Of a stretch of 64,000 bases of DNA, positions 8,977-54,433 are shown one piece after another. The stretch is taken from the NCBI GenBank assembly GCA_950295325.1, contig OX485803.1, positions 69,767,554-69,831,553 on the forward strand. Reading direction: 5' to 3'. This DNA comes from Polytrichum commune. Lineage: Eukaryota > Streptophyta > Polytrichopsida > Polytrichales > Polytrichaceae. The notes beneath the pieces were generated by a model, which searched no databases, was not told the DNA's origin, and saw only the letters and a list, made by a program, of their open reading frames with translations. How positions within the stretch are numbered: position 1 is the stretch's first letter; every line of letters begins with the position of its first letter. Made by a program: the position numbers and the translations under genes.

Positions 8977-10560
8977 ATTGCACACGTGGAGTATGGGGTG
9001 TCACGGGTGCAAAGAAATCATCTATTGTTGCAAACCCCAATGTTACGTCTAAGAGGTGAAACTTGTAATAAAAAAACCTCTAGTATTCTAGGCAAATGCA
9101 CTTCAATATTTATTAATGAAATCATAGAAGACTCTTACATCCATTGGATGTAACTCGTACAATTGGTTCCTAATGGCCTTATCAACTAACATGAGCCAAT
9201 TGGGCCATTATGAGACAATCATTTTGTCACAATTGATGAGATCTTCCATATTACAATTGATTATTTGCATGGTTATATATCTACATTGCCAAGAAAAAAA
9301 ATATCTTTGAAGCCCTATGTATATTTTGTACACCATATTCATATTTGAAATTTTTTTTTGTGTTACGTTGTCAGGTAGAGAGGGGTCCGCTTTGGGAAAG
9401 CACTGGGCTTTTGGCTGCAACTAGATTTGCTTGCCGGACCTTCGAATCTTCTTGTCTTCAAAAGTCTCGGTCTTCAGTTTCTTCAAACTTCAAACTCTTT
9501 TCCGTTGGCCTATCCTGTTGCGGCTCTAAACGGGTTAAGGGTAAGGGTAGGATGATAAGAAAACACAGGCCTCGGACGGGTAAACAGGACGTCAGATCAC
9601 GAGCCGACGTCCGACAGATTGGCTCCTAAACTTTCAAACCCACGGTGACCAGAAATCGCGCCTCACCAATGGGAACAACAGCATACAACCTTGTGAGTCA
9701 TCAATCCCACTTCGTTGTCACAAACACGAAATGAGGCTTTTATGGTTTCCCACAAAAACCCGCAACAATTTTACGATGCAAAAAAAATCAAGTACAACTA
9801 GCCTCCAAATCCGGCTTGGAATCACAAAAAAAAATGACAACGAACCACAAGCCACAACACACTTGAATCTTGGAAAATCTTCAAGTCTTCAAATCTTCAT
9901 ATGCACACCAAATTGATCGAATCATATTTTTACAAAAAAACTAACGATAAGTGCTACACTTCCTCAAGGTTTGTTGCAAACAAAAGACTTGTCCGTCTTC
10001 TATGGTCGGTCGAAGTCTCAGCCCTTCTTTGCAAGAGCCAACAGACCTCCCTCCATTCAAACTAGGACAACTTTTGTTTTTTTTTCTAACTTCCATTCAA
10101 GCAAGTGATCACTCTCGAGAAAACAACACCATGAAACGCAACTTCTGCTTTTTTATTTATTTCAAGATTCTCATAAAATCCACTCATATGCCATGAGCTT
10201 CCAACAACAACAAAAAAACTCTCCTCTCTCCAACCTCTTCTCTCCCTCTGAGTCTTCTCTCAAACTACACATGTGAGATAAGCCCAAAAATCCTCCTCTT
10301 ATTCTCATCACATGGCTTCTAATTATCCATTAATCTAAAAATAAACTAATGATAAAACTAGAAGTAAGACTAAAAGAGATAAGCTAAGAGTAAACTAAGA
10401 GTAAAAAAGAGAGATAACATTAAAAGGGTATACAAAAAGTCACTAAGAATAAAAAGGTAATCTATTTCTATTCCCTTTTACTTTCCTCCAAATCAAAGAA
10501 TCACAATCCAACACAAAATAAGTACACATCTATATAGTGTACGCATTTACATTACGACAA
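8977..10560. other. Noncoding stretch
   Basis: No convincing gene. A short ttacgtctaagaggtgaaa at about 9043 matches the start of the dispersed repeat at 10,561, and may be a terminal fragment of the same family. The rest is unrecognised. Confidence 0.4.
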
Positions 10561-12115
10561 CGTCTAAGAGGTGAAAAATGTTCACCAATTCCACGCAAAA
10601 TTTAGATATTGAATCACACACACACACACACACAATAACAAAAGGGGGGAAAAAAATTATGGAATTTTTGATCCACTATTTTCCCATAAGTTTTTCCCAA
10701 GTATTTCAAATTGCCATCTATTGCCACTAGAAAACAAGAACAAACAAAATTGATTTGCATCTCCATCTGCCGTTTCAAAATTGATCATCTAGACAAGAAT
10801 CAAAGTCTTAAGTTTGGAATTTAAATATATCAAATGTTATACTCAGCATTTATGGTACTTAATAAACATGAACCTACTAGACGATTTCAAGCGGATAGAT
10901 TTTGGAAAACCCCGGCTTTATTGATTGTAGAAAGACATGATTAATGATATCATGAACAACAAGGAAAACTACCATAGAGTAACATTTGCTTAACACTTAA
11001 AATGTCAAGAGCTAATTTTCACGTTGGATTGAACATGATCAACGTGGATATGATATGTGGCAAAATTTATTCAAACAAATAATAATTTTGCGTTGAATCA
11101 AATATCACCGTAAACACAGTCTTATCAATGAGTAACTTAGTGTCCATGATTAAGATTTGCCTTTGAAGCGGTTAATCAAAGTGAATAATGTCAATTTGTT
11201 GCTTGCATGGGAATCCCCCAATCACTCAACATGGCGTCAACCGACATACAAACCAACCTAGAGGATGGACAAGAACCAACGAAGTTCTTGGGCTACTCTA
11301 ATGATATGTGTATGAGTGAAGCTTAGGACAAATTTTGGCCAAGTATGGAGATATTTTGAGGAGAAATGGAATGGTTTCCAGTAATTCAAAAGGAAGAATC
11401 AATGACTGACTCAAGGAGATATTAGCTAACGGTAGATCATCTTTTTAAAAGTGTCAAACAAGGGTATGGACACTTGTGGGAGTGTTTGCCGAGAACGACC
11501 GAGCAAGTCGCGTATCACTACAATCAAGGAGGGTTTCTTCACAAACTTGTACTTCACACAAGTGATGGTACCATAGAGATACCATGATCACAAGCATCCT
11601 AAACCATTTATTAATTACTTTTATAGCATTTGGTCGCGTGTGAAAAAATGGTTCCAAGATGCACCGTATAAGGTAGACTCGCCTAAATTCAACACATCAA
11701 TCATTTGGACAGGTATATTTGAGTGGTATGTGGTTAGGTGTGGATCTAAGAATGGATACCAAAATAACACGTGTTTAAAAAAAGATTAGAGCATATGCTC
11801 AAAATATGTTAATCATTCTAAGTTCGATGATCAACGTGAATGGGAGGGGGACTTCTATGACCACCTAACGAGTACGAGAGTCTTCACTCTAATCACATAT
11901 GAGCTCTGAATTTTTTTGAGACAAATGAGTACATCCACGACTTGGATTTGCTAATCATCTCGCACTAGTTGGGTGTTTGCTTTCCTATGAGAAGTGGGTG
12001 CAGAGAGAGAAGTATCCAAATAACACACATCTACCTTATGTGGAAGATGGTCACACTTCAACCAAGTGCAAGGAGATAGCAAGTTATTGTTGGATATTTG
12101 TTATGTTTTCGTAGA

Positions 12116-12306
12116 GTGATGCGGTCATACCAAGGCTACTACACGAGATCCCATCAGAACTCTGAAGTTAAGCGCCTTTGGGCCGGAATAGTATTGGGAT
12201 GGGTGACCTCCCGGGAAGTCCCGGTGCTGCATCCATCTTTTCCTCTATGAACGGACACTTTATTCACACGGGCCCCTTGACAAGGCATTGGAGTTTCAAT
12301 TTCTTT
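12116..12306 (+). mobile_element. 5S rRNA-derived SINE (SINE3-like)
   Basis: A 191-bp insertion flanked by perfect 11-bp direct repeats gttttcgtaga (12,105-12,115 and 12,307-12,317). The related repeat copy at 44,480-44,490 has this 11-mer once and no insertion, so the boundaries are set by an empty site. The first ~120 bp are 5S rRNA-like with a well-preserved internal promoter. The last ~70 bp are unrelated and end in a T-rich run. Structure and duplication fit a retroposed 5S-headed SINE rather than a stray 5S gene. A 5S-like transcript with 3' readthrough, copied once, is the alternative. Confidence 0.82.
12117..12235 (+). rRNA. 5S rRNA-like head of the SINE
   Basis: About 119 bp align to plant 5S rRNA from the start (gcggtcatacc) through the conserved catcagaac core and the A-box region (aagttaagcg). 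They continue through the C-box (gggatgggtgacctcc) to the 3' end (ggtgctgcatcc). Several substitutions in the helices make it a derived copy, not a standard array gene. No tandem 5S array surrounds it. It may keep RNA polymerase III promoter activity, because the internal control region is nearly intact. Confidence 0.8.
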
Positions 12307-12419
12307 GTTTTCGTAGATTTAGAGGTAGTTGTAATACTCTTGTACTTCGCAGACAAGTGTTTGAATATACTCTGCATATATTGGATACATGTAATAAGAC
12401 ATGATTACCGAATGCATAT

Positions 12420-12444
12420 GGGTTTAGGGTTTAGGGTTTAGGGG
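12420..12444 (+). repeat. Interstitial TTTAGGG motif
   Basis: Three consecutive plant-type telomere units (gggtttagggtttaggg). Too short to be a telomere. Similar short runs occur at 14,234 and 40,951. Confidence 0.85.
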
Positions 12445-15384: not shown

Positions 15385-15655
15385 TACTTGGTTTTGGAGG
15401 TGTCTTGGGACGGCCTCGGTGTTTGGGGAGGATTTTTAACAACACCGGTCGATATCCTAGTGTTTTGAAGTCCAACCGGTTACATATTGACATCTTTCGG
15501 TTTTTCTTCATTAATTTGAGGTATATTCCATAAATTCCTCTAAAGTGATCGGTAATCCTCCTGAAATCTTGAAATTCAACCAGTTATTTCTCAAACTCAA
15601 CCGGTTTATCTGTAAATAGCGGCCGGTTCTACCCATTCATTAAACGGCCTTTGGA
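15385..15655 (+). repeat. Dispersed element R1, second copy
   Basis: Matches 55,583-55,812 across most of its length (shared ttgaggtatattccataaa and cggtaat blocks), and its 3' half matches 1736-1866. The ends are less clear than in the 55.6-kb copy. No coding capacity. Confidence 0.7.
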
Positions 15656-18806: not shown

Positions 18807-20210
18807 CTAATCGTCTTCCATACAATCAGAGCTACTATCAGAGAACTCTAGAGTTGATTGATTCTGAAGTTTAGAGTGCCATAAAGTCTTCGCCAGAATT
18901 TCATGCATTCTTGTAGCTTCACGAAGTAGGTCTACGGCCTTCTCATTTTCCTTCACTAGGAATGCTTCTACCTCTCTATCATCTATATCATCTGTAAACT
19001 CTGAATTTTCTCTATAAGATATTCTATTTTTTACCTTGTGAATTGGTGCCCTCTCGCAGCGTAGTTCTTGCCCTTCCTTCAAAATACCAATTTCGATTTT
19101 TCTTTGTAATTGTTCCTCCGCTTCTGAAATCCAGTTTTCATTGAAACCATCATTCATTGTAATGCACAAATTATGCAAAACAATGCATGTAGCAACAAGA
19201 TCCGGCACATTTTTCAATGGCACGTCAAATATCTTCATTATAATCCGCCATCTCCCCTTCAAAATTCCAAAAGCCCTCTCAACACACATCCATGTGGAAG
19301 ATTGGACAAAATTCCAATTTGCTTGGATTTGTGATAATTCTGTTTTTCCTCCTTTGAATGGACAATACATCCATGGTCTTATGGGATATGTTGCATCTTC
19401 TATTAATTTGTATGGATGTAATCTACCCTCCATACATACTCTCCTAATTTTTGTAACTTGAAAAACATCCAAATCATGGAGACTACCGGCCCAACCGAAT
19501 TCGTAATCCCAAAATTTACAATGCACATCAACAATTCCTTGAAGAATTGCTGAATGGAAGGATTTCCGACAGTAGTAATCTTCTCCCCAATATATAGGTG
19601 CTAAAACAGGAATGTGCGATCCATCGATTGCACCCACTACATACGGAATTCCATGAAGAGCTTCAAACTCCTTTGCTAAAATCCTAAACTGCGATTCGCT
19701 AGGCATTTACACGAGAATTCGTTGCAAATGTTGCCTTACGGCCTTACAAAATTCCCTCACAATTATCGAAACCGTAGATTCAGCAACCCCATAAAGATCA
19801 CCTATGAGCAACTGTCCATTGCCGGTTCCTAACCTAGACAATGAAATTGCAATTCTTGTTTCCACAGAAATTGCATTTCTCATAGGTGTATTTTTTTTAT
19901 GCAAAAACGGCCCTAATTTCTCACTAAGAAATTTAAAAGTAGCAAACTTAACTCGTGTTCTTTCTTTGAATTGACCTTCGGTATATGATCCCAGCAAAAA
20001 ACGGTCCGTGAATCCACATTGTCTTCCAATGCTCCACAAAGTTCGTGTCTCTCTTCTTCTCATGCTCTCCAAGAAGATGCTGAAAATTGCCACTTTCTCC
20101 CACTCTCCATGCAAAATCAAGGCTTGCAAGCTTACAATGTGTGAGATAAGCATGTGCAAGCACATATACAAGCCTAACATCAATACAAGGTTCCTCCTCC
20201 TCCCCTCCAT
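18807..20210 (-). pseudogene. Harbinger DDE transposase with one nonsense codon
   Basis: Catalyses cut-and-paste transposition at TTA/TAA sites (family knowledge). From the ATG at 20,210 (MEGRRRNLVL) the first part includes a helix-turn-helix-like segment (YGVAESTVSIIVREF). A TAA at 19,707-19,709 interrupts the frame, which resumes immediately with MPSESQF. The rest is a DDE_Tnp_4-like domain: first Asp in GAIDGSH (residue 28 of the second part), second Asp in GSLHDLDVF (78), Glu in ERAFGILKGRW (143). All three catalytic residues are present. An upstream in-frame ATG at 20,282 is less likely to be the start. A single stop is the only visible break. Confidence 0.88.
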
Positions 20211-20486: not shown

Positions 20487-21162
20487 AAAACGATTTAATT
20501 TTCTTGGTCATGGCTCTTGCTCCATAGTGTAAACCGCCCCTAAGGCTTCAAAAACTTCCCGAACTCTGTTGCTTACTCCAAGCGTCTGTTTCTGTATATC
20601 CATAATTATCCAATGAATTTGCATGTACAAAAAGCCAGTGGTAGTGGTACAGAACAACAACAAGTGTCCATGTTGGGTGCACCTACATATAGAGAACGAA
20701 AAACAACAAGCCCTCCACTAGGCACATCTCATACCCAAAAATGACCTAGACATTGTTACAATATCAATAACTCCAATCCATAATCAGTATCACAACTGCA
20801 ATCCCCATGATGGTCTCCTTCTAGACTCACATGTCATAACAAATTTCAAAGCAAACACTAGCACATACGAAAAAGCAACGATCCCACCAAAACTAAGGGT
20901 TGAACCTAGAACAGAAAGTAATGCCATCCATATACACTGCATACACCATAAAAACACACCCATCATATACGACGAATTGAGGAAATGAGTTCTATGGGCA
21001 GCACCTTACAAATCCCTACAACATTCATACAGGTCACACCACCTACACATGCACATGTCCCAATAAACCCCAGTACAAAATGGTATGAACTCACATACCC
21101 CCCTAAGTTAATCATCCAAATCTTAAATACCCCTTAATTATTAATCTAGAACAATGCCTAGC

Positions 21163-23310
21163 TGTAAGGCCAAACCCCCCACCCTTAAGCGTCCGTAGTC
21201 CGAGTAGTGGGTTTGGGCTCACATTCCTCCGCGGTATTGGATTTGGACTTGGATGAGTCCATAGTGCAAGGTTCACCCTTCAAGTGGTCTTGGATTTAAC
21301 TGGAATTTCATTTTTAACAACTCAATGTACGATTTCAATACGTATGTGGAGAATGCACAAGTTAACTATGTTATTTTAACCTCCTTATGCTCGGGTGCTA
21401 TTTTGTCTTTGTTTGCTTCTAACGTCCATCCGACTGCTTTAGCTACACAAGCCCTTAAGGATATCCCTCTCCTAAATGGAGTCCGTGCCGTTGACTCTAT
21501 ACTACCACTTGAACTATCACTTGTGTATTCCGTATCGCTACTATAAGAGGTCTCACTTGGTGTCTCCATACCGTACATAAGCCTTTAAGTATTAAGAAAT
21601 ACTTATGTGACTTATGTCAATCTCTCCCTCGCACCTTTGGTCTTTGCTTCCTTTGTCTTGCCATCGCGAGAGTGCTCCACATTCTCCATTAAGTTGTGCA
21701 CGTGGTTTATTTTTAAAGAGATGATGCAAGTGTTAAAAAAAACACTATTCTCTATAGTCAATCTCAAATACATTTACTTGTGAAAGCCACACATAACACT
21801 AACTAGCATAATGTAACTAACTACTTGTCTATGAGCTAATTAGGTAGGCTATCTACTAAGCTCCTTCATGAACCCATCTCTTTACTTTCTAATTACATAA
21901 ACCTAGCTCCTTCATAAACCCAGCTTCTTAGCTTCTAACTAAACAAACCCAGCTCCTTCATAAACCCAGCTCCTTCATGAACCCAGCTCCTTAGCTTCTA
22001 ACTAAACAAACCCAGGTCCTTCATAAACCCAGCTCTTTACTTTCTGACTAAACAAACCCAGCTCCTTCATAAACCCAGCTCCTTCATGAACCCACAACTT
22101 TGTAGTTGTAATCCCCAACTACCTCACTAATTATTCAAGCCCTTAACTAATCTTCCTACCTAATTTCCCTAATTCTACTAACAACCCCTTTCTAATCACA
22201 CAATTCTTCTCTAATCCTAAAATCCTAAAATCCTAGAGAGGAGAGGGGGAGAGAGAATTTCCTAACTTCACTAAGACTAACTAATCCACACAAGTATATT
22301 TTTGCACTCATCACAACATCAAGTGCTCAACTCTTAAACATGGAACTTGCAACCACGTGTATTCAAAACATGAACTTAAAGTACCACAAATTGGAATCAT
22401 GAATTAACTTTAAAATCCTTCACGTCAACACTAATTCTACCAAGAGGTCAAGCCCTCTTCAAGGCTAACAAGCCTTGGCTCTCAAACTAAAAACTAAGCA
22501 CACCCATGTGCTCCAATATGGCTTCCCACACCCACACTTATAACTCGTGGGGTGCCTTGGAGCACAAAGGAAAGAGAGGATGAGTGAGGGAAGAATGAGG
22601 GATTATATAGTAAGCTTGAGGGGGTGAGCACCCTCAAGGCTCACGATAAGCCCTTGAGATTTCCTCCTACTTAGTAGGCGCCAATCCTATCTTCTAAGTC
22701 TTCCTCCCTCAAATGATCAACAAGGATCCTAATTCGAACATTTAACTAGCCTTGGCTTTCTACCTACCACACTTTACCAAACTTGGGATGCTTCAACCTA
22801 AACTTAGCCTCCTTCGCTTTCCGCCGCCATAACTTTCTCCCCTTACTTTCCCAAATCGTCGCTCACCACTTAATTCAAACCACGATGCTTAACTCGTGAT
22901 TTGATTGGTGCTTTGAGAATTTGCTTATCCTCCACCTTGCATTCTTCCTTGGGCCTTCCCCATTAAGTGGCCATGATGAGGTGGTCCACTTGTGCGCTCC
23001 ATGTGATCCTCCATTCATCCCAATTCGAATGCACTTGCCTCTTGAGTCACTTTGGTTGTCTCCATCCATTTGTACTAGCCTACTCACTAACTACTCAATC
23101 CAAGTTCTCCTTACCTATCCTCATTCACTCAAATCCTTCCGAAGGTAAAAACACAATAACAACTCACATCCTAGCCTCTTACAACATGGTACTTCTAAGA
23201 CTAACATTTCACTCTTTTTATATTTTTGTGAAGTAACATGCTACTTCAAAGTGCATCAACTAACGTTTCAAGGGTCTAAGACTAAATGTGGGCACCCTTT
23301 TGGGCTCACA
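21163..23310. mobile_element. Solo LTR, 2.15 kb
   Basis: Begins TGTAAGGCC and ends GGGCTCACA, with short inverted TG...CA ends. Flanked by the perfect 5-bp duplication CTAGC (21,158-21,162 and 23,311-23,315). The inverted D2 copy lacks this block at about 58,530, confirming insertion. No internal retroelement genes are present, so this is a solo LTR left by LTR-LTR recombination. Orientation is unclear: TATA-like sequence near 22,600 reads on both strands. It contains its own minisatellite. Confidence 0.83.
21862..22094. repeat. Minisatellite inside the solo LTR
   Basis: Imperfect units with the core ctccttcataaacccag, separated by ttctaactaaacaaa, repeat at least four times with a complex period of about 60 bp. 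Replication slippage in the LTR could make copy number polymorphic. Confidence 0.75.
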
Positions 23311-23495
23311 CTAGCACACCCCCAAATACTTGCCACAATTCTACTACTACATAGACATATTATTGAGACTACTCTATGAAATAACCATCAGACACTGGAA
23401 TTATGAAAAAAACAAAGTATGGCATCTATAGCCCCACCAAAGGATCAAAAGTTGCCAAAAGATTATTAGGACTACAAAACATTCTACGAGCATAA

Positions 23496-24830
23496 TTGAT
23501 GGATGTACACCATACCCGCCAATTCCTCACCACCACATACTGTGATGAACCAACCCATATCTTCACATACTACCTCAATGTCCTATATCTACTAAACACC
23601 CAAATCAAGCACCCCACGTGTTCCTTAACAACCACCCAGATAAAACTATCCTTGAATCTATGGTCCAAATGTTACAATCCCGCACACAAACCACCACACT
23701 CCACAAAGTTATAGCTCGCACTAATATTGATGATAATGAACAAGCAAACGCACTAGCCAAAAGGGGAAACAAAATAAACCACAAATCCGCCATAGCACCA
23801 TATGAGCACACACCTCCCACACCATACTGTGTCCAAAAAGATTGGTGGCATTCATACGAAGGAAACACATGACAAAGGCACCATCAAACACCTCAACAAA
23901 CACATCCTTAAATATGACAAAAGACATAACTTAGTAGCTATAGTAGACCAAACACACCAATTATATAAATGGCTTGACAACAAGGACACATATAAAATAC
24001 TATCAAATGACTTTTGGAAAAATCTAATTATTATAGATAGACTAATAAGAAACCTAATCAAATTTTGAACATGACAATATATGGGCTACGCCCTAAAACA
24101 ACTCTTCTTTGGAAGAGAAGCCTAGTCATCAATAACATGCCTATATGCAACTCGCCACACGTAGATACATGAGTGCATGTACTACTTAAATGTAAACAAT
24201 TGACAACACATTCATGCACAAATAACCAAAAAAAAAAAAAAAAAAAAAACACACGACACAACACAACAAAATTGTTAGGGAACTAGGTAAACTCCTTACA
24301 TGAAACAAAATATCAAGACACTACCTACTCATAAACGCATGAACCTACAATGGACTACTCAAGATAACACTATACCAACATGGCTATTGTTGTGCACTTG
24401 CGGTGCCCACAAATGCCATTGCAATGCTACGTTTAAACTGGACATACGATGCGTCATAGGTCATCCATATAACCACCCCCACCAAAAAGGCCTACACCAT
24501 AACTCACAATACTTTTCATTGAATAATGACAAATTCCCCACATAAACTCTCGATAGGATAATATCAAAATATCAATTGCTAACCAACAACATCATAACAA
24601 GAGGATGGAACTTAGCCCCACTCATGGTCTTAGTTACAAGCACAAGAGCCACCACACATATCCCATCAATGAAAAATCTAGAAACAAAACTTAATATCCC
24701 AGTTCCAAAAATTGGCAGTACATTCAAACAAATCAACACAATAATCATGCAATATGCACACTATGTATTAATCCATAAACAAAGACTATAAAACCAACCA
24801 ATTGTTGTAGACCTCCAAAACTTGTCTTAG
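23496..24830 (+). pseudogene. LINE ORF2 3' end: RNase H and zinc-knuckle remnant
   Basis: Shifting among frames gives a coherent C-terminal non-LTR retrotransposon reading. A segment with TNIDDNEQANALAKRG resembles the last RNase H motif (Asn-Glu-Gln-Ala-Asn-x-Leu-Ala). A Trp-rich linker (QKDWWHSYEG) follows, then a Cys/His array (CNSPH...VHVLLKC) near 24,140-24,200, as after RNase H in plant and algal LINEs. Reading shifts frame near 23,600 and 23,860, and has a stop at about 24,171. A later part carries NNIITRGWNLAPLM. An AATC-type simple-repeat tail begins at about 24,960. The upstream part of D2 (20,680-21,150) also reads as broken protein, but its domain is uncertain. The inverted copy is at 57,030-58,360. 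Confidence 0.6.
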
Positions 24831-24959
24831 ACCAGCAAACCGATAGGAATTATTCAAGACACAAACCTTATGTCACCAAAACTGCAACACACCTAGGGAT
24901 ATAATACATCACAAACCGCCGAAACTTGCCTTACAATGGAAGGGGAGACTATTTATTAA

Positions 24960-25000
24960 ATAAATAAATCATTCAATCAATCAATCAATCAATCAAATTT
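24960..25000. repeat. AATA/AATC simple repeat, LINE-type tail
   Basis: Runs of aata and then aatc units (about 24,958-24,997) follow the decayed LINE frame, as in 3' tails of some LINEs. The inverted copy lies at 56,870-56,910. Confidence 0.65.
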
Positions 25001-26690
25001 ATACATAAATATACATATATGCAGTGGCACAAATTTCTTTTAGCTCAATTAAAAATTTCTTTGGAATAGGCCATTGGTTGGCAATACATATCTTGCATTG
25101 TACCACATAGCAACACTTGGCACAAGCACAATCAAGTACAAAATTTCATTACCTTGCATAGGTTTAAGTGAATTTAGAAATATATATATATATAAACTCT
25201 GAATTTTGTGAAGCAAAAAACCATAAACATTTGGAAAACACAATGATCTACAAAGCCATGCAATTTATTTCGACAATTTTTTTTTTAAAAAAAAAGCCTA
25301 CATATTTTAGAAGACGGTGCAAGTAGTATGCAAGTACATATATTTAGCATGTAATTGTCTAAAATTTGTCTAAGACAAAATAAAACTACATTAAATTGAT
25401 GTTTTCTACAAATTTTGTAATGGTGCCCTCAAGTTTATAACAAATATGAAAAAATTCCAACTACAAAATATTTAAGGTCATGAAATCTATGTCCAAAACA
25501 TGATTTAGCCATTACCTTTTGAGTAGTACTTTTAATGACAAGTTTTGAAGATCTCATCTTGATATTCTAAATTTGAGTACATAACACAACATTAGAGGGC
25601 ATCATGAAAAAATCCAATTTAAACAACATGTTGCTACTATTTTTAGGCATTGGACCAAAACATTTATGATTTTAGTATACTAGAGCACTATTTTTTGTAT
25701 ACTTGACCGTGCTTGCTCCCCACCAAGTCATTTTACATCCACATCCACTCAACTGAGTTCCTTGGGAATTAAACTTGGACTAGATAATATGGAGTTAACC
25801 CTAACTCCTCGCCAACAAGGAGCTAATGACATGGTGTTCATTCACTACCAAAACATGCCCTTAAACGCCACTTCTGATGATACTATTTTCCCACAAAAAC
25901 ACCCAATAACTATAATTACAAGTTATTGGTTATTGTTTTTGGTTCATGGATACTAAGGTAGTGTTTATTTCTTGCAAAAGGTGAAGTAGTTTGACATCCA
26001 ATGTCTTTGTCCTTTAGGACATGACCATGGATGTCTTACAACATACACTTTATTCACTCCGGTCCCCTTTCATAGGCAAGAGTTCTATATCTTCTCCTTC
26101 CACAAACATTCTTGGTCGTTGGGTTGGATCAAAATTTAATTGATCTGATTAGCAATTACAAATCATGAATGTGTGAATTTAGGAACAAAGTAAGTAGAGA
26201 TGTAAAACTTACAACAATCTAACTAGAAATATTATATTCATCTTTAAATGATCACATATAGCTAAACCCACTCGTGTTATTTATTGAACTTGCAAACCTA
26301 AGGGGTTGACTCTTCATTGGAATTGTAACTGATGTGCATGGGTGACCATGGAAAAATTCCCCCTTATACATGGGAAATTTGTAGAGAAGTACAAATAATA
26401 TACGTACTAATGGTGGGCATTTATCCCATTAAATTGACAAGCTTAGTATAAGTACATGAGGTGACTAAGGCATCCTAAGCTTCCACTTGGTTATTATTCC
26501 AAAATAATGATATAACATATGATGCCTTTTGTCAACTTTATCATGAATTTTAGCTGTCCACAAACCAAATAGGTACATCTACCTTCAACGTTATGTGTCT
26601 AAGTTTAGAATAATAGGATATATAAGATTCTTCCTTGTTCTATATTACAATGAATAGGGAGAATTGACCACTATATTACATTGTCCTACT
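25001..26690. other. Noncoding part of D2 and flank
   Basis: No gene. Up to 26,345 the sequence is shared with the inverted copy. About 26,465-26,640 is repeated directly at 59,527-59,700. A 65-codon frame at 25,762 is conserved in both copies (KLGLDNMELTLTP-like), but is too short and isolated to call a gene. Confidence 0.45.
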
Positions 26691-27115
26691 AGTGTGGGGT
26701 AACCATTCGGGGTTACGTGTTGCTATAACTTTTTTACCAACCATTTTTTTACAAACTAAGTTATATCATATTCTTCGGTGTGCTTACTAACTACACTAAA
26801 TATGCTATTTAGTGTCACTTAATATTTGGAATTACACAATGCTATATGTTTTTACTATTGATGTGATTTTTAACCAAGTAAAGTTGTAAATGTTATATAA
26901 TGTCCAAAGAACCTATGTAACATTTTTTGGTAAAATGTAAGATTTAAAGTAAATAGATACAACCTTGCGTAATTCCAAATAAAAAGTGACAATAAATATC
27001 ATATTTAGCGTACTTATGTTATTTGGGTAAATAATGACACTCTTAGTACAATGTTATAGTAATTGATTACTCTCAATGGTAACCCACACTAATAAGACAC
27101 TTTTAGTGTAGTTCC
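26690..27115. mobile_element. Foldback/MITE-like element F1
   Basis: Diverged inverted arms of roughly 180 bp, with outer ends tagtgtggggtaacc and its approximate complement near 27,080-27,100. Inner matching blocks surround ggaattac. The centre resembles the small element at 28,211-28,364. Non-coding. Confidence 0.55.
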
Positions 27116-28210
27116 AGGTGATATGGTGGAGTTTGGAAAATTGATGGTTGGAAATCAAGACTCCATGAAATTTACCGATCATTTTAGAGGAATCTATAGA
27201 ATATGCCTCAAAGTAGTAAAGAAAAACTGAAAGATCACAACATGTAACTGGTTGGACTTGAAAACACAAGGATGCCGACTGATTATGCCCAAACATCTCC
27301 CAGGACACTGCTATTTTATTCTACTGGGGGAATCTCAGAATTTGATGGTTTGTTTGTCATACCAAAGTATCAAATGCCAAAGTCACACTAACACCTTGAA
27401 TATGGCACTGATGACTTTGAAGACGTATATAATGGCCTCTACTGTGCAGTTCAATCATGTACAAAAATTAAATTGACAAATGATAAAACTCCTGAAAGGG
27501 CACATCAAATTTTTTTAAAACAATTTATGGGTAGCCAATGGCCATAGAATAACTGAGAACAATGCCCTAAGTACCTTTACTCTGGATGAGACCACCTGTT
27601 TTTTAGCCTCGGGGTGAGCAGACTTGCCACAATTCCCGGCTAGAGCTTCGTGTTGTCTACGTAAACTCCTTCATTGGGAAGGTGAAACCACAATGAACCA
27701 ATTTATAGTCTACACCTTTCTATTTCTAGACTATTTGACTCCTGCAATGGACACGAGAGACTCCATGTTAATCTAGTGAAGACAAATCAACCCTCAACCT
27801 ATGGGGAGCTTGTGTTGCAGGAAACTATCACACATGAATGTACGTTTCATTCATCCAACATAAAAACCATGAAATATCTAAGTACGCAACTAGGAGGTTA
27901 ATGTTTTTAGTTGATTTGACGACAAACATAGCTTTAGAGAAGACCTTGAATTGGTCTAGTTCAAGATATACGAGGTGAATCAACAATCATTTACCTTTAT
28001 TAACTTTTGGTGTTAAATGAATGAGAGGTAGGCTCGTCCACGATAATTTCCTGTCGTCGTTCTGTACTTAAGCACATTCATCCATGAAGGATTTGTTTAC
28101 ACAACCAGTACGAAGCTTTAGCTCAATTGCCTACCATATACTTCGTGACATCCCTAGCTATACATACCAAATACCTACACTAATTATGCCAACGGGTGCG
28201 TGTTACAATT
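27116..28210. other. Noncoding stretch
   Basis: No persuasive gene. A 74-codon frame at 27,252 lacks recognisable features. Confidence 0.4.
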
Positions 28211-28906: not shown

Positions 28907-28961
28907 TTAATACTACCGTTCGCTTGAGGCTGCACCGCCGCTTCGCTCTGATTGGGCCGAA

Positions 28962-30266
28962 ATGGGGAATTCACAATCAAGCAGGGGCTTGGACAAGAAG
29001 GGCGAGGCCACCACAGGGGTCTTTGAGAAAATTAAATCCTGGTTTGGAATTTTTCAAAAGAAACCAAGGCCATTGAATGATACCATGGAGGGGATTCGAC
29101 GGGCGAATGAATTGGGTGCAAAAGAGAGAGAATTAGCCGCAAAAGAGAGAGAATTATCCGCAAAAGAGCAAGAATTAGCAGCTGCGATAGAACGAGAATC
29201 AGCTGCTGAGAAAGAACGGGAATTGGCTGCTGCAAAAGAGCGTGAAGAGGCCGCTGCCCAGGCGGCCGTTGCCGAGGCACGCAAGCAAGAGGCGGCTGCC
29301 AAGAGCCGCGCAGATGCAGCTATGGCGGAGGCGCAGAAGGCGAACAACGCGCTCCAACAAGGCATCCGTCCCGTCGTGATGCCCACTGACGAGCAGTATG
29401 AGGCGACGATGAAGCGGATTCAGTACAGCAAGGAGAAGCTCCATTTCGCTGTTTGCGGGACCTCCGGTAGTGGAAAATCCACACTCATCAACGCATTCCG
29501 TGGCGTGAAAAGAGGCGACCAGAGCGCGGCCGCTGTCGGCGTCACGGAGACGACCTCCCAGATCACACGATACCCCGACCCCCGCCCCGAGCTCCCCTAC
29601 TCACGGTTCGTATGGTACGACATCCCCGGCGCGGGAACGACAGCCATCTCGGATTGGCAGTACTTCAACGACCAAGGGTTGTTCGCATTCGACTTCATCG
29701 TCATGGTGTACGACGTGCGCTTCACCAAGATCGACGTGAGCATCATTGAGAATTGCTACCGCTTCAACATCCCAGTGTTCATCGTGCGCAGCAAGGCCGA
29801 CCAGCACATTGACAACATGCTGAAGGATCGTGAGCTTGACTGTTTACCGGGCAGCGAGGAGTACCAAACGGTATACCAGGATGTCAAGATGGAGTATGTC
29901 AAAGAGACGAAAGCGGATTTCGAAAGGCACATCAAGAACATGGCGGGAAACCCGGAGTTCGATGCACGGGATCGGCAAATGCTTCTGGGCCAACGCGTTT
30001 ACATGGTGTCAGCCATCAATGTTCGATCTCTGGTGCTGAAGGGCCGTCAGGTCGACAGCAGCAGGCTCATTGATGAGGCTCTGCTGGTGGAGGACTTGCT
30101 CAGCACGGCCGCAAGAAGGCGCTACTTTGAGGAGGCGTGGACGGGCATTTTCAAGAGAGGGAGGGAGGCGCTCATTGGGGCATTCTCTACAGTTTTGAAA
30201 CCTTCAGGACCATCATCATCATCATCATCTTCAGGTCGCATAACAGGGCGATCAATGCCAGTGTAG
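28962..30266 (+). CDS. IRG-type GTPase-like protein, coiled-coil N-terminus
   Basis: Intact 434-residue frame starting in context gccgaaATGG. The N-terminus MGNSQSS fits an N-myristoylation signal (Gly2, Ser6), suggesting membrane attachment. Residues 45-133 form a charged Ala/Glu/Lys coiled coil with AAKEREL heptad repeats, encoded by three near-identical 21-bp DNA units. The G domain follows: P-loop GTSGSGKST (166-174), a switch Thr near 195, DIPG (220-223), RSKAD (276-280) and a G5-like VSA (349-351). DxPG plus RSKAD with a helical C-terminus matches immunity-related GTPases (IRG), which in animals remodel pathogen-containing membranes; a plant role is unknown. A Ser tract (about 418-424) precedes the end. 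GC is much higher than the flanks. No introns. Another dynamin-like or septin-like GTPase is less likely. Confidence 0.85.
   Translation: MGNSQSSRGLDKKGEATTGVFEKIKSWFGIFQKKPRPLNDTMEGIRRANELGAKERELAAKERELSAKEQELAAAIERESAAEKERELAAAKEREEAAAQAAVAEARKQEAAAKSRADAAMAEAQKANNALQQGIRPVVMPTDEQYEATMKRIQYSKEKLHFAVCGTSGSGKSTLINAFRGVKRGDQSAAAVGVTETTSQITRYPDPRPELPYSRFVWYDIPGAGTTAISDWQYFNDQGLFAFDFIVMVYDVRFTKIDVSIIENCYRFNIPVFIVRSKADQHIDNMLKDRELDCLPGSEEYQTVYQDVKMEYVKETKADFERHIKNMAGNPEFDARDRQMLLGQRVYMVSAINVRSLVLKGRQVDSSRLIDEALLVEDLLSTAARRRYFEEAWTGIFKRGREALIGAFSTVLKPSGPSSSSSSSGRITGRSMPV
29118..29180 (+). repeat. 21-bp in-frame repeats in the IRG coiled coil
   Basis: Three near-identical 21-bp units (gcaaaagagagagaatta core) encode AAKEREL-like heptads. 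Units differ by few bases, so copy number may vary between alleles and change coiled-coil length without breaking frame. Confidence 0.8.
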
Positions 30267-40520: not shown

Positions 40521-42974
40521 AACATCCTAGTAAATGCTTTCTCCATGATACTATCATTTATTTTACATAGTTACTTTATTATTATTGACACACATGCATT
40601 TGTTATCTTACACCTACAATCCAGTGGTATATGACAAGGCTTGTAGTCAAAAGACGTATGTAAAAAAGACATGCATGTTATGATAAGATTGAAGTCTGGA
40701 CTATGTGATCAAAATGCACTCAACACTCTTCAGGTCAAAGAGGGATAATTTCAAAGTTAACTTTTGACCTGAACCAAAGTCGTATCTGAACTCCAATATT
40801 GGATGTTTAAATAACAATCTTCATGATTCACAATAGTTGCTATTAAACAGATGAAGCAATTTCCAATCCAACCAACATTGGTAGACCAGTTGGACATGCC
40901 CACGGACCACAATAGGCCCACATATCTTAAAGGTTGGTAAGATTAAAAGATTTAGGGTTTAGGGTTTAGGGTTTAGTATTTGTGAAAGTTGTGCATGTCC
41001 AGTAGTTAATACAATAGATTACACACACAAACAATCTTGACTACTCGATAATCTATGTCGCATTAACTTAATTTATGTAGAATATACATTTGATGCTATC
41101 CAAGATTTTTGTGAAATTCGATGCACCAACGAAGGGTTGCGGCCCAATTTGCATATCACTGTGATAGCCAAGGACCTTATCAAGCATGAAGAAATGAAGG
41201 CAAAATCTACTATCTTTGGGAGGATGGGAACGTTGAGGGTTGAGGTTGTTGCCATGACAATCCCGCATCACAACTCCCAACATCCGTCATTTGTGCCCCC
41301 ACCAGGAGGGCCATAGAACCACTCATGAAGGCTAAAAAAACTGGGCATGGGGAGTAGGGAAAGCGGGTGATGAGCCAACAACTTCACCAAACTTGCCCAC
41401 TGGGGCTTAATCCAGGTGGGGGGAGGGGGGTTTGGAAGCTATGGAAGGGGGGTTAGAAAAGTAGAGAGGTTTGTAAATATTGGATATTATCTACATTAAA
41501 TAAGTTATAATTTCACTTAGATTGTATCCTTGACATATTTATATATCCAAATATTTATTTCTTTTAAAAAATTGGACCAAAATTATTGTGGGAATTTCAT
41601 ATTGTGTCATAAAACTAAGAAGAAAGCACACAAACACACAATTTTACGTGTCTCCACATCAAATTAGGGGTTTTTTTCGGAAAGGGGGTGGGGGCCGAGA
41701 AGGAGGAGACTGTAGAAGGGATAAAAAAAACAACTAAAATTTTATACATTGTTCACAAATAGCAATCCAAATGCAAGGGTATCACATGCCAAAATGGCAC
41801 AGCATAACACAAGTCCAAGCTAACTCCTTATGAGGGCCAGGGAGCGTACTCAAGGCTTACTCAACATCCACGTGGGTGTATAAAAGGGTATTAAGTGAGA
41901 GTTTGGTATACAAAATAATACACATGAAATGGGTATTGGTCCACTTAATTTTGTAGAATCATAGAGGGTTATATGAATTTCAAGGGAGAAGTGAGCATTC
42001 TACAAGGCAACTCTAAAGTTTATCATGCAAGGAGTTTCTTTCATCCAATAATTTACCCCCCACCCCCCACCCCTTGCTTGCACCCCCTAAAATATAATCC
42101 CATGAAGCAATACTTGTCAAAATCCTTTGTCATCCAAAACATTGTTTTCACCATTATGGTATGTTTTGCTCATTTGACTATGAAATTGTTGCTTGAAGCT
42201 TTAAGATTTAGGGTTCCATATTATTTTAAAGCATGCTCATAGCATTTGACACAAATCCTTGGTAAATAACATGTGTTCATAGCATTTGTTTTTTTGTTTG
42301 CATGTGTGGATTTTAGGACTTGTGAGGGAGGGTAATACTTGTCGATATTTCAAGTTTTCTTTTAGGGTTTCAATGTTTGAGGTTTTTGGAGTTGGTGATA
42401 ATTTCCTTGCACGATAATTGTTGGCATGTAAGTTTTAGGGTTGAATTGCTTACATTTTGTATAACATATGGCTCCCTTGTTGTCACCTTTGGAAATTCAT
42501 ATAAACTCGGGGTAGGCTTCAAATTTCTCCACAATTGAACCCAACTTCAACATCCACATTTGCATATTGACTAGAATCAAGATTTTGCATATCAAAGTTG
42601 TGTTTCATAGAGAACTTGAAAAGCAACCATTCATATCCATCTACAAATTTTAGGTTACAAAATTTACGTATGGATGGGTGTGATTCAACCTAGTTTATTA
42701 AAGATATATAGGGTAGTATAAACTTTGGGGGAGAGGTAAGTGTATTAGGGCCATAGGGGATGCATTGGATTCCTGTCCTTGTAGCACCTGAATGCACAAA
42801 AGATATTATTTGTTTTCCACCCAAGAATGGCATACATGTAGGGGTATTAGATCAAAGGTGATGAACACATGTGATGCATGCTTTGAATGAAGGGCCCTAA
42901 AGCACGCCTAAGGTGCCCAAAGTTTCTCACATGCAACATGACATTCACAAACTAAGGATTTTGTGATTATGCTA
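40521..42974. other. Noncoding stretch
   Basis: No convincing gene. It contains a telomere-type motif at 40,951 and C-rich and G-rich runs (41,415-41,440, 42,055-42,075). A 90-codon frame at 41,973 shows no recognisable features. Confidence 0.4.
40951..40976 (+). repeat. Interstitial TTTAGGG motif
   Basis: Three consecutive units plus a partial one. Too short for a chromosome end. Confidence 0.85.
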
Positions 42975-44530
42975 CGTCTAGGAGGTGAAAAATGTTCACC
43001 TATTGCACACAAAAATTAGGTATTTGAAACACACACACACACACACACACGCACACACAACAATTACAAAAGGAAAAAGAATTATGGAATTTTGGATCCA
43101 TTGTTTCTCCATATGTATTTCCCAAGTATTTCAAATGGCCATCTATTGCCACTAGAGAACAAGAACAAACAAAATTCATCTGCATCTCCATCCACCCTTC
43201 CAAAATTGATCATTTTGGACAAAAACGATTTGGATTTTAAATATTTCAAATATAATACTCAATACATATGATACTTAATAGACATGGACCTAATAGACAA
43301 TTCCAAACGGGTAGATTTTGAAAAACCTTAACTTTATTGATTGTGGATAGACATGATTAATGGTATCATGAGCAACAAGGAAAACTACAATAAAGTAACA
43401 TTTATTCAACACTTTAAGTGTCAAAAGCTAATTTTCACATTGGATTGAACATGATGTGATCAAAGTGGACATGATACGTAGCAAAATTATTCGGAAAAAT
43501 TAATTATTTCGCGTTGAATAAAATATCACCCTAAAGTAAGTCTTATGAATGAGTAACTTAGTGTCTGAGATTTATATTTGCCTTTGAAACAGTTAATCAA
43601 AGTGAGTAATGTCAACTTGTTGCATGCACAGGGGTCCCCCAACCAACATACAAGCCTTGAGGTTGGACAAAAACCAACAAAGTTCTTGAGCTAACTTAAT
43701 GATATGTATGTGTGAAGCTTAGGGCAAATTTTGGCCCAGTATGGAGATATTTTGAGGAGAAATTGAATGGTTTCAAGTACCACCATATATACCGGAGTTC
43801 AAAAGAAGAATCGATGACTAACTCAAGGAGATATTAGCTAAGGGTAGATAATCTCTTTTAAAGTATCGAACAATCGGTAAGGATACTTGTGGGAGTCTTT
43901 GCCGAGAATGACCGAGCAAGTTGCGTATCACTACAATCAAGGAGGGTTTCTTCACAAACTTGTACTTCACACAAGTGATGGTACAATAGAAATACCATTA
44001 CCGCAAGCATCCTAAACCATATATTTTTACAGCCCTTGGTCATGTGTGAAACATGATCCTTAAGATACACAATATAAGGTAGACTCACCTATTTGAGTGG
44101 TATGTGGCTAGGTGTGGATCTAAGAATGGACACCAAAACAACACGTGTATTAAAGAAAAAGATTGGATTACATGCTCAAAATATGTTAACCATTCTAAGT
44201 TCAATGGTCAACATGACTAGGAGGGGGATCTATATGACCACCTAACGTGTACGAAAATCTTCACTCTAATCATAGATAAGCTTCGAAATTTATGAGGTAA
44301 ATGAGTACATCCACGATTTGGATTTGCTAATCATCTCATGCTAATTGGGTGTATAATTTCCTATTGAGAAGTGGGTGCAGAGAGAAGTTTCCAAACAACG
44401 CACATCTATCTTATGTGGAAAATGATCAAACTTCAACCAAGTGCAAGGAGATAGCAAGTTGTTGTTGAATAATTGTTATGTTTTCGTAGATTTATAGGTA
44501 ATTGTAATACTCTTGTACTTTGCAGACCAG
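42975..44530. repeat. Dispersed repeat D1, copy 2
   Basis: Direct-orientation match to 10,561-12,363, including the (CA)n run at about 43,028-43,050. It preserves the empty site for the 5S SINE at 44,480-44,490. Homology stops at cagaccagtg, where TIR element A begins. Confidence 0.85.
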
Positions 44531-45452
44531 TGTGGCCGGGGATTCGTGGCACTCATGTATTTTCATTAGTGAGAGTTCATTCATCTTTGCGGATGAGATG
44601 AACCACTTTAGACACTACCTCACGTCGTCGGCTCCTTGTCTCAAGGGTTTCAAAAATACCAAGTTTTAGTAGTTCTAAATAATCCTAGTCTAATCTAATA
44701 CTTAAGGCTATAATACAAAGGGGGTTAGATAAAATAAAAATGCCTCATGTAGAAACAAGTGGGTGCATCATGCGTTGCCAACCTATCATTACTAGTCCGG
44801 TTATTTTTAAGAAACTAATATGGGCGGACATTAAATACCCCCTCACGAACTTTCGGGGGTGTCAAATCCGGGCTAGGGCAACCCTCTAAAAACAATTCTG
44901 AACCCAATTGAAAAATATTGCCCATCCCGCCCAACTTCAAAAAAAAAAACATTGCCCTTGCATTCTTGAAGGGCACTTGACTACAAATCCCATATTGAAT
45001 ACACTTCACTTCAAGGTCTAAAATCCAATATATATGTGCACTTCCAATTAATAAATAAGCAATTGATCGGGATTTCATTCCGGAAGTGAAACCATCAATG
45101 AAGCACGTAATTAACTTGGAGGTCAAAAACATTACAAAATCCTCATTAAAATTGAGGTTATAATTTTGTGACTTAAAACTATCTTTGTCATCCTAATGAT
45201 AGATTAGTGCAAGTGTTCATAAAATGACCAAAATGAAACAATGAACGTAGAATATAAAACATACAACAAAAAAATTGTATAAAAATAAATCTTAATTTTT
45301 AGGTAATATAATATGAGCTTTAAATAAATTGTATGTTATTTGGAATTAGACTTGTGGGACAACGTTATGGATGGGGTATACTTAAAAAATCATAAGTTCC
45401 TGACTATTGCCTATATGAAATATTGTAATTTTTTATCCTCATCAAATATTGT

Positions 45453-46697: not shown

Positions 46698-48230
46698 GAT
46701 TGGAGGTCACGAACGACCTCGAGACTGGAAGGGGACGTCATAGTGTTATCATTGGACGAGTCAGCCCCGACGAGTCCGGATCCAGCAGAAGTCGCCGGAC
46801 TTTTCACACCAGACGGAGCAGGGAGGACGGAAGCGGAGTCCGACGAAGGGGAAGAAATTTCCGTCGCCCCGATGGCTCCCGCTACACGGCTCAAGTACAG
46901 TCAATTCCGGGGAGACGGAAGTCAGGATGTGGATGACTGGTACTGTGAGTTTGAATCCATTGCCACCGCCAACGAAGAGGATGCGGATACCAAAGGCCGG
47001 ATCTTCCAAGGACTGTTGAAGGGGGAGGCATTGAAGTGGTACCAAGATGTACCCGACGAGACCAGAGATGACTGGGTAGATTTCATCCAGCTATTTCTGA
47101 AGACCTTCCGAGAAGCGGGAGGTGAGGCAAGAGCTCTGGGACGGTTGAGCCGGATGGCGAAGAAACCGGAGGAATCAGTCCGGAAGTACGGTCAGAGGGT
47201 GAAGGCTCTGATCCAGAAACTAACGACTGAAATCGCCCAGAGCGTGCAGGTGGAATGGTACGTGGCAGGGTTTCCGGAAAGGATGGGTTTCTAGACCCGG
47301 CCGGCCACTCTCCGGGAGGCAATGGAAGCAGCGCAAAACTACGAGAATTCTGCGCAATCTCTCCGGAAGTCGCTTAGACAAACGGAGGAGAAGGGAAGGA
47401 AGCACACTCGGAGGAGACGGAAGTACAGCTCCCCCTCTTAATCAAGCTCTTGCAGCAAATCAGAGGCTACCCCCTTTGAGTCCTCTAGTTCCGCCGAGGA
47501 GGCCGCTAGCAGTTCAAGGGTCCAGAATCGTCATTCCGGGAGTGGTAAAGAACGGAAGGGGAAAGAGCTGATAAAGGTCAAGGTCCAAGAGGACGACTCT
47601 CGGAGGATGATGAAGAATATCCAAGACACCCTAGCAGCCATCCAGGTCAACCTGGCGGAAAACCGGAAACCTAGAAGGACTGTTCCTACCAGCCGAGCCA
47701 ACGTGTGGTGTGCCCGGTGTGGTGAGGCCGGACACTTCCCTCTGGAATGCACCCGACCCCCTCAGAAGCGGATTTAGTACGTGCAGCCGGAGGAGGAAGT
47801 CTACTACATGTATCCGGACGAGGAAGAAGAGGAGGAGGACCCCCCTCCGGTTTACCAAGTCCAGTCCACTTACGGAAGAGGACGGGCCTCCGCTCCCTTC
47901 GGTAGGACAACGACGGGATCCCGGATGGTGCAATCCGGCGTAAACCCCGGGGCGGGCATGCAACCACGTTACCCAAGCCGGCCACCCGGATACTGCTTCA
48001 ACTGCGGAAGCCCGGATCATTATGCTACCAGCTGCCCGTTCCCAAGACAAGGTCAGGGGGCGCCGCGGATCCTCCCATGCGAGAATTGCCAAGAATACGG
48101 GCATTCCGCTCCCCAGTGCCAAAAACCGGTACAGGTGAGGCCGGTATTCAAACCCGTGGAAGTCCCGCCACGGGAACAGACGGGGCTCAACTACGGCCAC
48201 ACGGCCGGAATAGATAATCCGAAAAAATGA
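46698..48230 (+). pseudogene. Ty3 gag with three zinc knuckles
   Basis: Capsid/nucleocapsid polyprotein. One frame is open from about 46,698. The likely first Met is at about 46,872, so the true start is unsure. The capsid-like region includes WYCEFESIATAN, EALKWYQDVP and a retrotrans_gag-like helical stretch to about 47,290. Three CCHC knuckles follow: CARCGEAGHFPLEC, CFNCGSPDHYATSC and CENCQEYGHSAPQC. Stops in the same frame at 47,292 (TAG), 47,439 (TAA), 47,775 (TAG) and 48,228 (TGA) break it. Each is one C-to-T change from a Gln or Arg codon. Confidence 0.88.
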
Positions 48231-48239
48231 CGAGGTGAG

Positions 48240-49604
48240 GTGGAGACGACCGAAGAGGCCGAAGGACCTGTTTTCCGGGTCACCTTGCGTAGCTCCACCA
48301 AGAACCGTCCAGAGGTAACCAGTAACGGTAGAAATAGAAGAGGCAGGCATAGAGGTAGTAAGAAGAAGTTAGTTGCAGATCCAGACTCCAGTGACGAAGC
48401 CCCCACTCTGGAAGTGCCGAAATCCCTCCCCAGGGTAAACACCGGAAGTGGGGTAGACCAACACCGGATTCGGGAAGACGTCAGTGCGGAAATAAAAAGA
48501 GAGTTAGCCGACTCCGGATCACCCCTGATCCGAACGACGGTCACGTTCGATGATGTTCCTGTCATCATACCGGCCACTCTCAAAGTAGACGAGTACGATA
48601 TTATAGAGGACATCAAATCGCAAAAGGCTAACGTCACCATCGGCCAGCTCCTCCACGACAACGTAAACTATCAGAAGGTCATCCAGGAAGCTTGGAGTAA
48701 AAGACGGAGACGGAAAACAAAGTTGCCGTCCGTCGCCACCAACTTCCTGCAGGTGGAAGATCAGGGCGCTCCGGAGGTAACGGTGGTAGTGGAAGGGTGC
48801 ACAATCCCTTGAGTTCCAGTCGATAGCGGATCCGGGGTCAACCTCATGCTGAAAGACACCGCTTTTGACCTAGGGTACACCTCCTTCGAAACCACTAATC
48901 AAGTACTCCGGATGGCGGATCAGTCCCGAGTACTCCCCATAGGGCGGCTTTCTCAAGTCCCGACAGTGATAGGGGAGGTCACATACCTACTGAACTACGT
49001 GGTCATCCGGGTCAATTCCGGAAGACCTTTCCCCATGCTGTTGGGCCGACCCTGGCTGTACATGGCCGGAGTACTCGTCGATTGGGGCTCCAAAGAATTC
49101 GTGCTCATAAGGACCAAGCAGAGGATCCCTTGGAAGCTGGACAGTTACCAAGGCGAGACCAGCGAATCAGACGGATACACGACGGACTGGTCCGATCCGG
49201 AGGAAGAGGAGGAAGCCTTGAGTTACTTCGTAGAGCCCTTCGTTGAAAGCACGGAAGTCGAGTTCGAGTTTCCATACCCGGTTAAGGAGTTAACTCAGCC
49301 AGAAGAAACCCAGGACAGAAAGACGGAAACTCCCGAGGCCGGACCAAAAGACCGCTCCCTAGGAGAGATCAATGTACCACTGTCGGCCGAATGGATACGA
49401 GATCAACTGGCTGATGGAAAGCTAACCCCAGTGGGACTGAAGGCGGAGGATGCCGATTTATGGTGGAGTGCTTTCCGAAAGGATGGCGAGGAACAGAATC
49501 CGGATAAAATCAAGACCATAGTCAGCCCCGCGGACTATGAGAAAGTAGAGGTAGAACCCGGTCGAACCTTCCTGATGCGGAAGTCTATGAGCCCGGCGGA
49601 ATGA
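48240..49604 (+). pseudogene. Ty3 protease region
   Basis: Same frame as gag. A linker (48,240-48,812) ends in a TGA directly before the protease active site. The Asp-Ser-Gly triad (VDSGSGVNLM) lies at about 48,820-48,850, and MLLGRPWL about 65 residues later is the conserved Leu-Gly-Arg motif of retropepsins. An acidic spacer rich in Glu follows to the TGA at 49,602. The protease cleaves Gag-Pol in the virus-like particle (family knowledge). The catalytic triad is intact, but the stop upstream would prevent its translation. Confidence 0.85.
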
Positions 49605-49613
49605 GCAAGCTAC

Positions 49614-50970
49614 ATGGCACTCCTAAAAGACTATTTAGACGTGTTCGCATGGGGTCCGGACGACTTGCAAGGAATACCCCCGGAATTAGGACAACATCAC
49701 ATCGACCTCATGAACGGCTCCGCCCCTGTCAGACAAAGGCAATACCGACTGAATCCGAAGTACTCGCTGATGGTGAAGGAGGAGATCGATAGTCTGTTGA
49801 AAGCCGGATTCATCTATCCAGTGTGCAACTCCGAATGGGTCTCCCCCATCGTCGTGGTACCCAAGAAGGTCGGAGCGGACGGAAAGGTAAAAATCCGGGT
49901 TTGCCAGGACTTCCGGAAGTTGAACGCCGCCACCAAAAAAGACTACTTCCCGCTGCCTTTCACAGATATCATACTGGACCATGTGTCCGGACACGAGTGT
50001 TACAGCTTCCTAGATGGATTTTCCGGATACAACCAGGTCTTCATCCGGAAGGGGGACCAATTCAAAACAACGTTCACCACCGAGTGGAGGACGTTCGCCT
50101 TTAACCGAATGTCGTTCGGGTTGTGCAATGCTCCGGGGTACCTTCCAACGACTCATGATGGACATTTTTAAGGATTTCCTGAGGCACTTCCTAGAGGTAT
50201 TCATCAACGACTTTGCGGTGTTTAGCGAACAGACGGATCACCACGACTTCCTCCGAAGAACCTTTCAGCGCTGCCGCGAAACCGGATTGAAACTGCATCC
50301 GGGGAAGTGCTTCCTGGACATGGAATCCGGGGTCCTTTTGGGACACGTTGTCAGTCGACAGGGGTTAGAGGTGGACTCGGACAAAGTCCGGGCTATCCTA
50401 GCCCTGGTAGCCCCTAAGACCGTTCGGGAGGTCAGAGGTTTCCTCGGATGCGTCGGGTACTACCGGAGGTTCATAGGGAATTATGCCAAAGTGGCCACCC
50501 CCCTGACGGAGCTCTTGAAGAGGGAGACGGACTTCGTCTGGACGGATCGGCGGCAAACGGCTTTTGAGGAACTAAAGAGGGCCTTGACTACAACACCAAT
50601 TCTTTCCCCGCCGGATTGGGAGCAAGAGTTCCATGTCACCCTGGACGCTTCCGGATGGTGCCTTGGAGCCATACTATGGCAGTACCAAGGAAGCTGGAAT
50701 GAAGGCCCCATTTATTACGCCAGCCGGCAAATGAGTCCGGCGGAGCGGAACTACACCACCACGGAGAGAGAGGCCTTAGCAGTGGTGTACGCTTGTAGGA
50801 AGTTCCGACACTACCTGTTAGGGTACCGGATCGTATTCCACACAGACCACAACTCCTTGAAGTACCTAGTCAATAAGTCCGGATTTATCCGGAAGGATAG
50901 CCTGCTGGATCCTCCTACTTCAGGAATTCGACTACGAGGTGGTGGTAAAACCCGGAAAAGCCAACTCTAA
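49614..50970 (+). pseudogene. Ty3 reverse transcriptase and RNase H
   Basis: RT starts around LLKDYLDVFAWGPDDLQGIP and continues through VKIRVCQDFRKLNAATKKD and FNRMSFGLCNAPG (49,614-50,140). A frame change near 50,140 follows. The catalytic box reads FINDFAVF; the usual first Asp of YxDD/FxDD is Asn (AAC at 50,206-50,208), which should abolish polymerisation. The thumb/RNase H part includes GFLGCVGYYRRFI, LDASGWCLGAIL, TTTEREALAVVYACRKFRHYL and HTDHNSLKYL. A second frame change near 50,905 ends this reading. Function in the family: copies element RNA into DNA and degrades the template. Confidence 0.92.
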
Positions 50971-54327: not shown

Positions 54328-54433
54328 CACCCATGCACGACAGTTACAATTCCAAAGAAGAATCAACCCCCTAGATTTGCAAGTTCAATAAATAACACAA
54401 GTGGGTTAGCTATATGTGATCATTTGAAGAATA

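Follow-up and report, generated by a model that had tools for sequence, protein, structure and literature searches.

SINE3 families, in which a 5′-terminal head derived from 5S rRNA is followed by a further 3′ part and the element is bordered by target duplications, have been described from vertebrates (PMC3747384), Lepidoptera (HaSE3 and PxSE4/5; PMC8010984) and Aspergillus (AfuSINE3; PMC5063351). The heads of such elements lie far from cellular 5S: in the sections of these sources that treat the comparison, AfuSINE3 heads match A. fumigatus 5S at 50–65% (PMC5063351) and PxSE4/5 heads match Bombyx 5S at about 63% (PMC8010984). In mammals, 5S rRNA retropseudogenes with target duplications are documented, including ‘tailless’ copies that are made by LINE machinery, lack an oligo(A) tail and, in the examples presented, are 3′-truncated (PMC5322556). 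Land-plant SINEs are described as tRNA-derived in the relevant part of a 2022 review (PMC9033089), and in the literature examined the only plant retroelements with 5S promoters are Cassandra LTR elements. Two proposals for the origin of Cassandra appear in the portions of that literature covered here, the insertion of a SINE3 into an LTR (PMC10886601) and, alternatively, the landing of an LTR element near a 5S array (PMC10853983). No 5S-headed plant SINE was found among the papers listed in searches of the open literature, by title and the start of the abstract, a scope that does not establish absence from print.

The locus described here is a 5S-bearing insertion in a 64-kb window, that is, the whole stretch of DNA analysed. 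The insertion, its boundaries, its duplication, its empty site and its 5S head are real. As checked on the window sequence, the inserted piece comprises 190 bp (12116–12305, +) plus 12 duplicated bp, and lies in copy 1 of a repeat, D1 (10560–12360, +). The longest exact target duplication is the 12-bp TGTTTTCGTAGA, with its left copy at 12104–12115 (+) and its right copy at 12306–12317 (+). A first-pass annotation had given a 191-bp insert and an 11-bp duplication; the insert and the exactness of the duplication stand, and both sizes were off by one base. The window contains the 11-mer GTTTTCGTAGA at three positions of the + strand (12105, 12307 and 44480) and at none of the − strand. Two of these occurrences border the insert, and D1 copy 2 (42974–44533, +) has the third as its only one, at 44480, within the unoccupied target site TGTTTTCGTAGA (44479–44490, +). 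When the two flanks of D1 copy 1 are joined, their alignment with D1 copy 2 crosses the site uninterrupted, which that of the filled copy does not. The left-flank alignment covers about 210 bp (183 identities, 24 mismatches and 4 gaps) and the right-flank alignment is short (38/42 identities) because D1 homology stops at about 12360/44533. The insert is missing from D1 copy 2, which carries the target sequence once, so the filled and empty sites that had been reported for this window are both present, and retroposition, as proposed in the same annotation, is supported by the 12-bp duplication and the D1 copy 2 alignment. Judged from this uninterrupted alignment across the empty site, the insertion most likely postdates the separation of the two D1 copies.

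Two further features adjoin these sites. About 105 bp downstream of the right duplication are three TTTAGGG telomere-type units (12423–12443), a plant-like sign. The first-pass annotation called the genome plant-like, which is plausible. Just past the empty site, D1 copy 2 is terminated by a member of a repeat family that carries GGCCGGGGATTCGTGGCACTCA near its start (44531–45175, 59039–59446, 62683–62994 and parts of 60343–61460); the letters GGCCGGGGATTCGTGGCACTCA are also present at the end of copy 2 of another repeat, D2.

The head of the insert is a full-length 5S rRNA-like sequence. When the window was scanned with cmscan against all 4227 Rfam families, 5S rRNA was the sole match at the gathering threshold (RF00001; 12117–12235, +; model positions 1–120/120; 101.3 bits; E 5.3e-21). 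A single nucleotide of the insert precedes this match, and the entire 5S is carried. A second 5S was not detected in the window at E ≤ 1, where the two further matches were both sub-threshold and from unrelated families. A tandem 5S gene cluster was considered and rejected, since the window holds one 5S and that one lies within a filled/empty-site pair. Of the 34 consensus pairs, 30 form standard pairs (21 identical to the Rfam consensus, 3 altered on one side and 6 on both) and the other 4 do not; this number of standard pairs, with 6 changed on both sides, fits a head that was copied from a lineage-specific, functional 5S RNA and has since decayed to some extent. Folding of 12117–12306 as RNA gave a stability not above that of shuffled sequences (z −0.35; 65 of 200 shuffles as good).

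The internal Pol III promoter is almost intact. Boxes A and C were scored against the consensus of a Cassandra search query, which has the same 18-nt spacing in the part of the source that gives it (PMC7215508). Box A (AGTTAAGCGCCT; 12166–12177, +) has one mismatch to RGTTAAGYRHGY, and box C (GGGATGGGTGACC; 12196–12208, +), 18 nt past box A, has none to RRRATRGGTRACY. Together with the full-length Rfam match, these boxes bear out the earlier description of the head as 5S with its internal promoter almost intact. A TTTT lies 2 nt beyond the end of the Rfam match (12238–12241, +), where the terminator of a 5S gene would be expected, and a second one within the right duplication (12308–12311) could mark the end of a Pol III transcript of this copy.

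A 5S promoter within a non-coding plant retroelement recalls Cassandra-type TRIMs, the known 5S-bearing retrotransposons of vascular plants, and the insert might be such an element in the form of a solo LTR, a fragment or a retroposed transcript. The two boxes and their spacing fit the Cassandra query consensus with a single mismatch, as true 5S genes also would. However, TRIMs have duplications of 4–6 bp, against 12 bp here, in the figures given by PMC4717578; the 5S lies at the terminus of the insert, whereas no member of the 81-element Cassandra set, as presented in the consulted part of PMC10853983, has it at an LTR terminus; and the Met primer-binding site attributed to Cassandra in an excerpt of PMC7215508, TGGTATCAGAGC, is absent from the whole window at 0–1 mismatch. 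The insert starts with GTGATG and finishes with TTTCTT, without the TG...CA ends of an LTR. Cassandra elements differ in their LTRs, short duplications, internally placed 5S and primer-binding site, none of which the insert has. A Cassandra LTR was rejected on the duplication length, the 5S position and the missing primer-binding site, and a Cassandra origin in any of these forms is very improbable.

The remaining 70 bp of the insert (12236–12305, +) form a 3′ tail that is not 5S and has a T-rich end (TTTCAATTTCTT). An exact target duplication of 12 bp is typical of target-primed reverse transcription. Four features point to this process acting on a Pol III transcript that began at the 5S 5′ end: the 12-bp duplication, the empty paralogous site, a 5′ boundary no more than 1 nt from where the 5S starts, and the T-rich 3′ terminus. 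A duplication and an insert are not by themselves proof of an RNA intermediate, and a piece of 5S rDNA might have been captured directly as DNA, for instance to fill a break under repair. Such capture is improbable here: the 5′ boundary at the 5S start and the T-rich 3′ end resemble those of a Pol III transcript, and the exact 12-bp duplication is of the length expected from target-primed reverse transcription.

Between the two readings that invoke an RNA, we slightly prefer a one-off event over the 5S-headed SINE family proposed in the first-pass annotation. The insert would then be a single read-through 5S retropseudogene with the flank of a 5S gene as its tail, a reading that we place just short of an even chance. 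A Pol III transcript would have started at the 5S rRNA 5′ end, passed the TTTT directly after the 5S and terminated in a U-rich run some 70 nt downstream. Through the target-primed reverse transcription of a LINE, this RNA would have been copied into DNA at a nick in D1 copy 1 and inserted there, with the 12-bp duplication as the trace of the event, and the tail would be the flanking sequence of the 5S gene. We infer the RNA intermediate, the Pol III read-through, the use of LINE machinery and the tail origin. A tail taken from the flank of a 5S gene would be expected to carry a TTTT such as the one 2 nt past the 5S match. As in a retropseudogene, the insert is a 5S RNA copy with a target duplication, and its site is empty in a paralogous copy of the host repeat. 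It resembles the mammalian ‘tailless’ copies in joining 5S to target duplications with no oligo(A) tail; unlike them, it is full length, extends 70 nt beyond the 5S and sits in a plant-like genome. The 5S retropseudogenes presented in PMC5322556 are 3′-truncated rather than full-length read-through copies, which speaks against this reading.

The other reading makes the insert a member of a SINE3-like family, with a 5S promoter head, a 70-bp tail recognised by a partner LINE, a T-rich end and multiplication by target-primed reverse transcription. We regard this as a serious but tentative contender, somewhat less probable than the one-off copy. The composite head-tail build, the near-intact type 1 promoter boxes, the full 5′ end and the 12-bp duplication are all consistent with it. 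A 5S-derived head with type 1 boxes A and C, and a LINE-type duplication with an empty site, are what SINE3 elements would present. A random 64 kb would also be less likely to contain a one-off copy than one belonging to a multicopy family, a consideration that favours the family and tells against the one-off reading. The T-rich 3′ end, which is not poly(A), also favours the family, since Au and p-SINEs of plants terminate in T runs according to the pertinent part of PMC3747384. The heads of p-SINEs are tRNA-derived. That of Au is likewise derived from tRNA in the treatment of PMC9033089, whereas the head here is 5S. Against a family, the insert has a single copy in the window, a count that supports the retropseudogene, and its internal TTTT could shorten the transcript. 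Compared with described SINE3 elements, the insert is a single copy within the window where they form multicopy families, it is 190 bp long as against 259–343 bp for AfuSINE3 and 389 bp for PxSE4/5, and its head is apparently closer to 5S.

This closeness was gauged in a proxy genome search, in which two reading frames of the insert were used as queries against 5.8 billion predicted proteins. The search returned 13 candidates, 12 of them with E ≤ 10, and all 12 were antisense readings of 5S-like DNA. Over the 26-residue peptide of the 5S part (antisense frame), the insert has one difference from eight of these 12 ORFs, two from three and three from one. At the peptide level, the head is near the 5S types of public assemblies, in contrast to the distant heads of SINE3 elements elsewhere, and this counts against the family reading. 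The 25 residues past the 5S in the 12 ORFs scored 9–24 against the insert tail, no better than chance; the best of these ORF-flank scores was matched by 302 of 1000 shuffled tails, and the flanks belong to other genomes and have little bearing on the host. That 12 of the 13 candidates (E ≤ 10) are without the tail also speaks against a family, in a search of low sensitivity for tail repeats, since short frames from thinly sampled genomes rarely enter such protein sets. What slightly favours the read-through copy is that the head is probably close to cellular 5S and that a TTTT occupies the place of a 5S terminator. We note that two of the public ORFs, P0241 and P0244, have a nearly identical antisense flank beside the 5S (longest contigs 1005 and 8756 bp). 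This flank lacks the run of lysines expected from a T-rich terminator, and could stem from 5S spacers that are related to each other or from a further repeat with a 5S head.

Exact patterns for the tail, the junction and the 5S were also sought in two contig collections, viral_contigs and genome_contigs, with no match in a 5S context; the only pattern matches there were two 18-mers without such context. These collections are viral and bacterial/archaeal and hold little plant DNA, so that a null is expected of them and weighs only weakly against a family. The plasmid and phage collections gave no match, and the letters of the 5S sequence had no match in the text of papers.

The tail has no strong match elsewhere in the window, and its best one lies within repeat D2 (20657–26351 and 54321–59041). 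Under permissive scoring this match covers 42/57 positions at 26040–26093 (+; E 4e-4), and default blastn of the tail against the window retrieves a 25-bp piece only (E 0.024). When 1000 dinucleotide shuffles of the tail were run over the window, one scored as high as the D2 match. This weak similarity recurs collinearly in the two D2 copies and extends to the insert 3′ end, with a score of 21 for copy 1 (reached by 0 of 2000 shuffles) and of 16 for copy 2 (reached by 4 of 2000), the copies not being independent of each other. We treat it as a lead only. A spacer-derived tail would not be expected to resemble D2 right up to where the insert ends; taken at face value, this likeness speaks against the one-off copy and for a family. 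D2 homology continues beyond 26093, to 26238 and then, past a gap, to 26351, which indicates that the tail-like stretch is, as far as seen, not a LINE 3′ terminus. The first-pass annotation had called D2 a LINE and suggested comparing the tail with it. The comparison did yield the weak collinear match, but the LINE assignment was not confirmed: none of eight ORFs scanned in the D2 stretches has a Pfam match above the curated cut-off, and peptides of the tail and D2 together gave no Pfam matches. The more specific proposal of a recently active plant or algal 5S-headed SINE family, with a head still near cellular 5S, a T-rich end and a 3′ part from a D2-related element, is unlikely on present evidence.

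Within D2, an ORF at 23549–23872 has an RNase H-like motif, seen by eye only. A repeat of about 215 bp (15419–15634, 27105–27310 and 55586–55802) breaks up D2 copy 2 next to the part that resembles the tail and is missing from D2 copy 1; its ends resemble inverted repeats by eye, and it is probably a MITE.

Each reading would carry its own consequence for how 5S promoters come to lie outside 5S arrays. A one-off read-through copy would mean that the non-LTR machinery of the host accepted a 5S Pol III transcript, and would provide one route for scattering 5S promoters. A 5S-headed plant SINE, by comparison, would supply the source that the SINE3-into-LTR proposal for Cassandra requires; it would be a living model of a SINE-like Cassandra precursor and the first 5S-headed SINE of green plants in the literature examined.

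Other mobile elements and one protein-coding frame were identified in the same window. A transposase ORF at 18807–19706 (−), which we take to be of the PIF/Harbinger type, matches DDE_Tnp_4 and Plant_tran, a plant-like sign, and its closest match among the best 120 of 254 is 92% identical. LTR-retrotransposon ORFs occupy 46698–52378 (+), with gag and integrase above the Pfam cut-off and reverse transcriptase below it; the domain order suggests a Gypsy-type element. An open 451-aa frame at 28911–30266 (+) matches the IRG-type (interferon-inducible) GTPase family, and its top three matches are 77–84% identical. Among the best 120 of its 457 matches, the named plants, a further plant-like sign, are a liverwort, Calypogeia fissa (48% and 46%), and a moss, Ceratodon purpureus (40%), and the others are mostly fungi.
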